Assembly: GCA_031275795.1 (NCBI GenBank)
Contig: JAISOG010000010.1
Location: 1 to 39,651 of the forward strand
From: Candidatus Endomicrobiellum incisitermitis
GTDB lineage: Bacteria > Elusimicrobiota > Endomicrobiia > Endomicrobiales > Endomicrobiaceae
DNA length: 39,651 bases
Reading direction: 5' to 3'
The position numbers and the translations under genes were made by a program. Of this stretch, positions 4,442-6,823 are shown in pieces. The notes below the pieces were generated by a model that worked only from the letters and a program-made list of their open reading frames with translations, was not told the DNA's origin and made no database searches. Numbering within the stretch: the stretch's first letter is position 1; the number at the start of each line of letters is the position of its first letter.

Positions 4442-5716
4442 ATGTTAGATATAAAGGTTATTAGAGAAAATGTTGGATTTGTAAAACAAGCAATGCTTTC
4501 TAGAAATAAAAATGTTGATTTTGAGCAACTTCTAAAATGGGATCAGGAAAGAAAAGTTGTAATAAGTGAAATAGAATCTTTAAGACTTAAAAGAAATGAA
4601 GAATCTGAAAAAGTCGGCAATCTTAAAAGAGAGGGTAAAGAGCCGTCTTTAGAATTGCTTGAAGAGATAAACGAGTCAAGAGATGTGATACAACAACAAG
4701 AAGAACAGTTGTTAATGATAGAAAATCAAATAGAAGATTTTCTTCTTAGTCTGCCTAACATTCCTGACGAAAGTGTGCCTGTTGGAAAAGATGAAAAAGA
4801 CAACAAAGTTATAAGACTTGTTGGAGAACCAAAAGAATTTTCTTTTAAGCCTAAACATCACTGGGAAATTGGCGAGAAACTTGGAATTTTAGATTTTGAA
4901 GTAGCGTCAAAAATTTCAGGGTCGCGTTTTGTAGTGTTTAAAAATGAAGGATGTGCATTAGAAAGAGCAATTATTTCTTTTTTTCTTGACACACACAAAG
5001 AAAAAGGTTATCAAGAAATAATGGCTCCTTATCTTGTCAAAAGTGCTTCTATGAGAGGTACAGGGCAACTTCCCAAATTTGGGGAAGATGCATTTAAATG
5101 TGAAGATGATGATTTGTATTTAATACCTACTGCGGAAGTTTCTGTTACAAATATTTATAGAGATGATATGCTTGATGAGTCTAAACTTCCTCAAAAATTT
5201 GTTTCTTATTCTGCCTGTTTTAGGAGAGAGGCTGGTACTTATGGTAGGGACACAAAGGGACTTATAAGGAATCATCAGTTTGAAAAAGTTGAACTTGTAA
5301 AATTTGTAAGCCCTAAAGATTCAAACGAGCAATTAGAAAGTTTGGTCTGTGACGCGGGGCACGTTTTAGAACTTTTAGGACTCCCTTATAGAGTAGTTCT
5401 TTTATCTACTGGCGATATGGGATTCTCTTCTTCAAAAACTTATGATTTAGAAGTATGGCTTTCAGGAGACTCGATGTATAGAGAAATTTCGTCATGTTCA
5501 AATTTTAAAGATTTTCAAGCAAGGAGAATGAACATAAAAATAAAATATAAAGATAAGAAAAAAGAATTTTTGCATACTCTTAACGGATCTGGTGTTGCTG
5601 CGGGCAGAACATTTGCCGCTGTTTTGGAATATTATCAACAAGAAGATGGTTCAGTTATAATCCCAGAAGTTTTACGTAAATATACAAATTTTAATATTAT
5701 TAGATCAAAAAAATAA
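4442..5716 (+). CDS. serS: Seryl-tRNA synthetase
   Basis: Class II aminoacyl-tRNA synthetase that charges tRNA-Ser with serine. It has 424 residues, normal for bacteria. The N-terminal antiparallel coiled-coil arm (about residues 30-105, rich in E/K/Q) recognises the long variable arm of tRNA-Ser. Motif 2 is seen as [20 protein letters not shown] and motif 3 as [27 protein letters not shown] upstream is a good ribosome-binding site. It lies 15 nt after dnaE, and its transcript ends at the terminator at 5744-5773. Its substrate tRNA-Ser(GCU) lies 2.1 kb downstream. Confidence 0.97.
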
Positions 5717-5743
5717 ATTGTTCTAGTGCTATAAAATAAAAAA

Positions 5744-5773
5744 GACCATCTAGTAAACTAGACGGCCTTTTTT
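5744..5773. terminator. Bidirectional intrinsic terminator
   Basis: Arms 5744-5753 and 5758-5767 enclose a TAAA loop. A-rich sequence precedes and T-rich sequence follows on both strands. On the minus strand the two mismatched positions become G:U pairs, giving an unbroken 10-bp stem. It sits between convergent serS and the small minus-strand gene at 5784-5906 and probably ends both transcripts. Confidence 0.85.
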
Positions 5774-5783
5774 ATTTTAGTTT

Positions 5784-5906
5784 CTATTTTGCTTTTTTTT
5801 TCGCAGTCGTTTTCTTTTTTGTCGATTTAGTTTTAGATGCTAGTTTTTTTACAACCTTTTTTTTAACACTTGCCTTTTTTGGTTTGCATCCGCATCCACA
5901 AGCCAT
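5784..5906 (-). CDS. Small Cys-cluster, lysine-rich basic protein (40 aa)
   Basis: A 40-residue frame begins MACGCGCKPKKASVKKK and ends in further Lys/Ala/Thr/Ser repeats (TKKKTTAKKKAK). AGGAG lies at good spacing before the ATG, a strong promoter is at 5963-5990 and a terminator follows the stop, so it looks like a real monocistronic gene. The Cys-Gly-Cys-Gly-Cys head could bind a metal or be redox-active. The tail resembles histone-H1-like bacterial DNA-binding proteins, or ribosomal and RNA-binding tails. I do not recognise a family, and the function is unknown. Nucleoid or RNA binding is only inferred from composition. Confidence 0.75.
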   Translation of the reverse strand: MACGCGCKPKKASVKKKVVKKLASKTKSTKKKTTAKKKAK

Positions 5907-5920
5907 GTTTGGCTCCTTTT

Positions 5921-5955
5921 GGGAAAGATTCCCTTATTTTTTTGCGCAAAGCGCA
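5921..5955 (-). promoter_or_regulatory. Two-hairpin leader of the small Cys/Lys protein
   Basis: Between the promoter and the start codon the minus-strand transcript would carry TGCGC-TTT-GCGCA (5943-5955) and then GGGAA-TCT-TTCCC (5921-5933), the latter directly before the ribosome-binding site. Two compact stems in a leader of about 50 nt suggest mRNA stabilisation or translational control. The role is inference. Confidence 0.4.
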
Positions 5956-5962
5956 GAAACAT

Positions 5963-5990
5963 ATTATAAATAATATATACTAAAAATCAA
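5963..5990 (-). promoter_or_regulatory. Promoter of the small Cys/Lys protein
   Basis: On the minus strand TTGATT (5990-5985) and a perfect TATAAT (5968-5963) are 16 bp apart, a good sigma-70-type promoter. Transcription should start near 5957 and read into the leader hairpins and the 40-aa gene. It lies immediately beyond the stop codon of the upstream membrane-protein gene, so this gene has its own transcription unit. Confidence 0.7.
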
Positions 5991-5993
5991 ATT

Positions 5994-6785
5994 TTATTTC
6001 AAATCATTCGGCACTTGCCGAGGAGGAAGTTTAATACTTCTCATTTCAAAAAGTCCAGAAATAATAGCACCAACAAAATAAATAGTCCAAAGATAAGTAT
6101 AATAGCTTCCTGAGATAGCTGCGATTCCTGCTATAATGAAAGAAGACGCAAATATGATAAGACTTGCCTCAAGATATCTCCATTTTGCAGGTATTAAATT
6201 ATAAATGTTTGTAAGATGATAATTATGTCTTCTATGTCTTACATAAGCTGCAGCAAGAAGCAAAAAACCTACTGGAGAAACAAACTGGCAAATCAAATGT
6301 ATCAACACAAGTTGTATTGAAGATTGAGAATGAAACCATATTGGATCGTAAATAGTAATATTACCCCAAATGGATATAATTTTTGACTCAGTTACAGCAA
6401 TACTATTTATAAGTGCAAATATAATACCCATTAATACGCCTATTGTGTAAGCTGCAAATTTGCTTGAACGTGGTGCTCCGCTTGGCGTTGGTACCCAATG
6501 AAAAATAGCCACAAGAATAGAAGGAGAAATAATAGCCATTAAAAAAAATTGCCTTGTACAATTGATTATTAAAGGCCAAGGATGAGATCCTAAAATATTT
6601 TGTAGTGGACGTGTAATAAAGTAAATGGCAAATAATATAAAAGCAGTTTCAAGTTTTCTAAATCCGATTTCTCCAAACATTATAGAACGAAATTTACTTG
6701 TACGCTTTACTTGAAATGCCATAAAAAAATACATAAGACCTGCAACTAATGGTAAAAAAAAAGTTACTATGAAATTAAAATGCAT
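5994..6785 (-). CDS. Seven-helix membrane protein of unknown function
   Basis: About 263 residues with seven strongly hydrophobic stretches (near residues 3-22, 43-60, 75-95, 108-128, 148-173, 202-222 and 228-248), so an integral inner-membrane protein. The topology resembles the N-terminal 7TM sensor region of some histidine kinases, but no kinase, GGDEF or other effector domain follows. The start at 6785 (MHFNF) is preferred over the longer frame from 6806 because GGAG lies five bases before it. Downstream of folD on the same strand, about 100 nt away, with a weak hairpin between them. No family recognised. Confidence 0.75.
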   Translation of the reverse strand: MHFNFIVTFFLPLVAGLMYFFMAFQVKRTSKFRSIMFGEIGFRKLETAFILFAIYFITRPLQNILGSHPWPLIINCTRQFFLMAIISPSILVAIFHWVPTPSGAPRSSKFAAYTIGVLMGIIFALINSIAVTESKIISIWGNITIYDPIWFHSQSSIQLVLIHLICQFVSPVGFLLLAAAYVRHRRHNYHLTNIYNLIPAKWRYLEASLIIFASSFIIAGIAAISGSYYTYLWTIYFVGAIISGLFEMRSIKLPPRQVPNDLK

Positions 6786-6823
6786 TATTTCTCCAAAATA
6801 GATCATTTGTAATTAATACTTAA

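Follow-up and report, generated by a model that had tools for sequence, protein, structure and literature searches.

A conserved small gene for a lysine-rich, putatively histone H1-like peptide with a two-hairpin leader in Endomicrobiaceae

The window, by which we mean the whole stretch of 39,651 nucleotides that was analysed (Candidatus Endomicrobiellum incisitermitis, assembly GCA_031275795.1, contig JAISOG010000010.1), contains a 40-codon open reading frame on the minus strand that is almost certainly a real gene. We read its product, with a probability of about 0.55, as a histone H1- or protamine-like nucleic-acid-binding microprotein that would be expressed from a monocistronic unit and act as an accessory to HU. 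An earlier note on this DNA had proposed a complete, independent unit encoding a small, nucleic-acid-binding-like protein. The translation that we obtained is identical to the one given there, the elements of the unit (40-aa ORF, leader hairpins, Shine-Dalgarno sequence, promoter and terminator) are all present (Table 1), and frame, promoter, leader, terminator and synteny are conserved; composition suggests the function. That relatives have this head and leader with these neighbours puts the locus beyond chance. The host genome is 1.24 Mb in size.

Table 1. Features of the small-gene locus, in window coordinates.
Feature	Position	Strand	Remarks
serS, convergent downstream neighbour	4442..5716	(+)	syntenic
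Bidirectional intrinsic terminator	5733..5778	(.)	21-bp hairpin, -24.7 kcal/mol, z -9.5; shared with serS
Small-gene ORF, MACGCGCKPKKASVKKKVVKKLASKTKSTKKKTTAKKKAK	5784..5906	(-)	40 aa, net charge +17, 42% Lys; orthologues with pN/pS 0.28
Cys head MACGCGC	5886..5906	(-)	MACGC in most relatives, MACC in G317, absent in G046 and G309
Possible hairpin H3	5900..5915	(-)	GAGCCA pairs with UGGCUU, AUG partly in loop; -8.2 kcal/mol, z -1.3
Shine-Dalgarno GGAG	5913..5916	(-)	followed by CC; C/T in nearly all Cys-headed relatives
Entire leader	5911..5959	(-)	covariance model R1: 46.8 bits, E 1.1e-7, single match in genome
Leader hairpin H2, GGGAA(UCU)UUCCC	5921..5933	(-)	other genera UGCC(GAAA)GGCA, AGCC(UACG)GGCU, AGCU(ACG)AGCU
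Leader hairpin H1, UGCGC(UUU)GCGCA	5943..5955	(-)	covaries in relatives
Promoter of the earlier note, TTGATT-16-TATAAT	5963..5990	(-)	alternative or second promoter
Preferred promoter, TTGAAA-17-TATATA	5974..6002	(-)	-35 is the last two codons of memb; pattern common to relatives
memb, upstream neighbour	5994..6806	(-)	uncharacterised 270-aa membrane protein; syntenic, outside transcription unit

The pattern GGAG-N4..11-ATGGCNTGYGGNTGY, which joins GGAG to the MACGC head, matched in 23 of the 42 genus genomes (12 of the 15 high-quality ones) and in members of three other Endomicrobiaceae genera; the reversed pattern, used as a control, gave zero matches, and one further match in another family was unrelated. 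Two more members of the genus carry altered heads, MACGSGC and MAYGCEC. Orthologues, some of them decayed, were identified in 25 of the 42 Endomicrobiellum genomes; Endomicrobium species and several other genera of the family have them too. By DNA search, the entire unit is conserved in close relatives, and mainly the leader and first codons in distant ones. The earlier note had held that a frame or Cys pattern not conserved among close relatives would speak against the gene, and had proposed an analysis of selection on homologues; frame and Cys pattern are both conserved in close relatives, and the small gene is under purifying selection, with a pooled pN/pS of 0.28 over eleven close pairs, in which substitutions fall 23/28/52 on the three codon positions, third positions changing most. 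The reading frame is intact in nearly all orthologues although length changes many times.

Most orthologues whose loci extend far enough retain the gene order folD > memb > small gene < serS. The polytopic memb product, conserved across Endomicrobiaceae at about 52-97% identity, had no family match above cut-off, and memb is disrupted in some endosymbionts (G039, G019 and G011). One MAG (G026) carries two diverged folD-memb-small gene-serS blocks, on contigs C8 and C16, for which a mixed bin is likelier than a duplication. PADLOC returned no match and hence no anti-phage defence assignment, and the literature searched on histone-like proteins of Endomicrobium or Elusimicrobia yielded no earlier description.

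The claim that the gene has its own promoter holds for the presence of a sigma-70-like site and less well for the site originally named, since only this genome and its closest sister have TTGATT-16-TATAAT at that position, and transcription from it would start inside H1. In many relatives the best promoter is TTGAAA, TTGATT or TTGCAA with 17-18-nt spacing, ending 61-88 nt before the start codon and usually leaving room for a transcription start before H1; the form common to relatives is probably TTGAAA-17-TATATA, and both sites may work. The terminator is likewise real and strong, with similar ones after most intact orthologues, but it lies between the ORF and serS, outside the interval 5784-5990 to which the earlier note had assigned the unit.

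Nearly every relative has the same leader layout, consisting of H1, an A-rich linker (typically TAAAAACAA), H2, AAAA and GGAG. The covariance model R1, which was trained on nine relatives with the window genome left out, recovered the window leader (Table 1). Pairs were counted in the covariance-model alignment, which is fitted to the structure and was used because MAFFT put H2 one column off between genera: among 25 leaders, standard pairs occupied 93.5% of pair cells and 7 of the 12 pairs changed on both sides, 0 of 500 shuffles scored as high, and sliding the partner left 30-79% paired. The H2 stem takes the forms GGGAA/UUCCC, AGGAA/UUCCU, UGGAAAU/GUUUCCA, UGCC/GGCA and AGCC/GGCU, its place and its distance to the Shine-Dalgarno sequence staying constant while its sequence changes fully between genera. 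In several relatives the H2 loop is GAAA, GAGA or UACG, which are stable tetraloops in the mRNA-strand reading, and this strand also carries the promoter, the Shine-Dalgarno sequence and the frame; a strand test by G-U vs. A-C cells gave 13 to 12. Because the window leader, folded singly, has an unremarkable energy (z = -1.5), the case for the leader rests on comparison, which shows the two hairpins predicted in the earlier note to be conserved with covariation. Read on the plus strand, H2 and, after it, the complement of the linker, which is U-rich (5921-5940), resemble a weak terminator that could back up serS termination.

No convincing second leader per genome was seen among the covariance-model matches inspected, several weaker ones with E above 0.03 lying beyond these, and a multi-target regulatory element was rejected, as the six extra matches inspected had no such leader before a similar gene. 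At gathering score, Rfam matched only one tRNA in the window and not the leader; nor can the leader be identified from weak matches below that threshold, none of which rises above chance. A Guanidine-II (mini-ykkC) riboswitch, which needs two hairpins with ACGR loops, was rejected because the loops vary (UUU, UCU, GAAA, GAUA and UACG) and Rfam gave no match. Leaders of the ompA 5' UTR type stabilise the message by a 5' stem-loop; the small-gene leader shares with them a 5'-proximal hairpin, a single-stranded linker and an accessible Shine-Dalgarno sequence, and has no sequence relation to them.

The dedication of this leader to the small gene alone would also suit an RNA- or ribosome-associated microprotein that, when abundant, represses its own mRNA via the leader hairpins or H3, in the manner of ribosomal protein autogenous control. 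Consistent with such autoregulation, GAGCC-GGCUU pairing across the start codon recurs in most Cys-headed members, the two positions that follow GGAG are restricted to C or T in nearly all of them, and 33 of 34 members use GCT as codon 2. However, the loop sequences are not conserved, so that no specific binding site is obvious in the leader; H3 is weak evidence, since it folds just slightly better than shuffles and is found in no member outside the Cys-headed clade, being absent in G046 and G309; and the constancy of codon 2 may reflect common descent. We give this RNA or ribosome role with autoregulation a probability of roughly one in five.

The cysteine head had been proposed as a possible metal-binding core of a two-part design, a view that its distribution does not favour. 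The CGCGC form occurs in four genomes of one subclade only and is a local expansion of MACGC; one Cys is replaced in the heads of G017 and G040, contrary to the idea that the Cys pattern is the essence of the protein, and positions shift in G017, G040 and G317, so that no Cys cluster of the metallothionein/CxC kind is conserved in all orthologues. In two genera the orthologues lack Cys altogether (G046, MAAKKKVVKKKAAPKKKAAAKKKKK, and G309, MPTKKKPAVKK...), and these keep the place after memb, the tail and an H2-like hairpin before the Shine-Dalgarno sequence. The constant part of the protein, as far as its sequence tells, is thus the K/A/P/V tail and not the Cys head. Because the Cys-less genera fall outside the clade with all Cys-headed forms in the memb tree (support for the uniting node only 0.72), a single gain of Cys by an older basic peptide is probable; alternatively, Cys may have been lost in the Cys-less group. 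Three delta-proteobacterial wHTH-like small proteins also start with MACGCK, a MACGC-type head thus recurring on unrelated, presumed DNA-binding proteins.

A metal or redox peptide resembling metallothioneins or copper chaperones, in which CGCGC or CGC would bind Cu(I) or Zn(II) and the basic tail would serve as carrier or nucleic-acid anchor, draws on the fact that all Cys-headed orthologues keep at least two Cys despite pattern shifts (CGSGC, YGCEC, ACC). We regard it as improbable, given that the Cys-less orthologues retain place, H2-type leader and tail, that a count of two to three Cys is low for a metallothionein, and that no metal transporter or regulator adjoins the gene. Still less credible is a reading in which the conserved element would be an RNA with a regulatory or structural role and the ORF would be incidental or encode a leader peptide. 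In its favour, DNA-level conservation is higher in the leader than in the tail, and the unit is short with a strong terminator at its end; however, the pN/pS, the third-position excess, the strong Shine-Dalgarno sequence and a frame kept through many length changes all point to translation, and nothing lies downstream that such an RNA could regulate.

The window falls in a genus whose named genomes are Candidatus Endomicrobiellum and related Endomicrobium MAGs, endosymbionts of termite-gut flagellates (PMC11257099). Altered forms included, the small gene occurs in 19 of the 21 genus assemblies that reach about 1.0 Mb, against 6 of the 21 smaller ones, a contrast that is inflated by incomplete small assemblies. 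MAGs of Endomicrobium labiotermitis, neocapritermitis and macrotermitis carry it too, as does a single-contig 1.6-Mb genome (G314). In the genera that we took, from their position in the tree, as the ruminant clade, no copy next to memb was seen at the resolved loci, with four set aside. Decay is visible in several genomes: G041 has lost the H1 hairpin and has an unrelated C-terminus, the tails of G011 and G019 are altered, and in G039, where memb is broken, only a remnant resembling hairpin H1 remains. The suggestion that this is a protein of a reduced genome is accordingly reversed, as repeat-rich forms occur in larger-genome relatives and small symbiont genomes lose or degrade the gene; on this distribution, the gene predates endosymbiosis and has been lost mainly where genomes are smallest. 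A secreted, nuclear-localising effector acting on the flagellate, for which one could cite Lys clusters that resemble nuclear localisation signals, is barely credible, since species that do not belong to the endosymbiont genus have the gene as well, many of the smallest endosymbiont genomes lack it or hold a decayed copy, and no signal peptide is visible.

The histone H1-like reading that we prefer is built on the tail. Intact members are 22-51 aa long, with 39-56% K and net charges of +10 to +23, and some, at 22 aa, have very short tails. In Endomicrobium species the tails are composed of AAPKKK and VAAKK units in variable copy number (AAPKKKVAAKK repeats), that is, the strain-variable, Lys-rich low-complexity repeats by which HC2 proteins are recognised. 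No Pfam or NCBIfam family reached its cut-off for the small protein or its relatives: for HC2 (PF07382, cut-off 40) the best relative scored 12 bits (E 0.23) and for NF038053 (cut-off 80) 13.5 bits, with no match of the window protein to either, and no solved structure matches it by sequence. Lys-rich tails easily arise by convergence. An Omnitrophica locus (MACGCKKTKKKVAKK..., L074) is a case of convergence or an isolated one, because its leader match is weak (11.9 bits, E 1.2) and 76 neighbouring genomes had no match; this locus contains a 30-aa MACGCKKTKKKVAKKTVKKAVKKVAKKKKR ORF with a good Shine-Dalgarno sequence (4539-4631). An Elusimicrobia match (MACGCKCCENCKCC...) was unrelated, and the remaining contig matches outside Endomicrobiaceae were unrelated ORFs or wHTH-like proteins.

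We favour DNA as the target because the tail has the composition of the histone H1 C-terminal tail and of AlgP, whose K/P/A-rich C-terminal repeats resemble that tail and bind DNA, as demonstrated with AlgP fragments (PMC9239181); as the genome has two HU-family genes, the small protein would be an accessory factor. In the mechanism that we propose, every biochemical step of which we infer, the sigma-70-type promoter would yield an mRNA of roughly 200 nt, in which two 5' hairpins and A-rich single strands would keep the leader structured and the strong Shine-Dalgarno sequence reachable, favouring a stable, well-translated message. The short mRNA would give an abundant basic peptide, whose disordered Lys/Ala/Pro/Val tail would, judging from composition, bind DNA and possibly RNA by charge and help to compact DNA alongside HU. 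In the termite clade, the added N-terminal thiol pair would probably link peptides via a disulfide or a common metal ion. A bolder and quite tentative version of this proposal sees a near-minimal, lineage-specific H1/protamine analogue, little more than an H1 tail standing alone, in which a thiol pair grafted onto an older peptide without Cys would place DNA compaction under redox or metal control, behind a two-hairpin leader of a new class.

A few bacterial lineages are known to have H1-like proteins, mostly longer ones. A free-standing form of 22-51 residues, followed from larger-genome relatives to its loss in eroding endosymbionts, would offer a small, traceable case of a chromatin-like protein arising, gaining cysteines and being discarded, and the leader model makes it easy to find a gene that would escape most gene callers.

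Several known systems share features with the small protein. Vertebrate protamines are very short, extremely basic and Arg-rich, with Cys for cross-linking; the small protein is also short, basic and, in most members, Cys-bearing, but Lys-rich, and we claim no homology. The K/A/P-rich composition is common to it and to the Burkholderia-type histone H1-like family NF038053. Pseudomonas AlgP and PhaF have C-terminal KPAA repeats that, as here, resemble the histone H1 tail, but theirs is fused to an N-terminal domain, whereas here the tail is almost the entire protein. Chlamydial Hc2/HctB (PF07382), from an intracellular bacterium of a distant phylum, likewise consists of Lys/Ala-rich disordered repeats and varies in length via repeat number; at 165-237 aa (PMC2848022), it is far longer than the intact members of the present family, which differ from it also in their Cys head.
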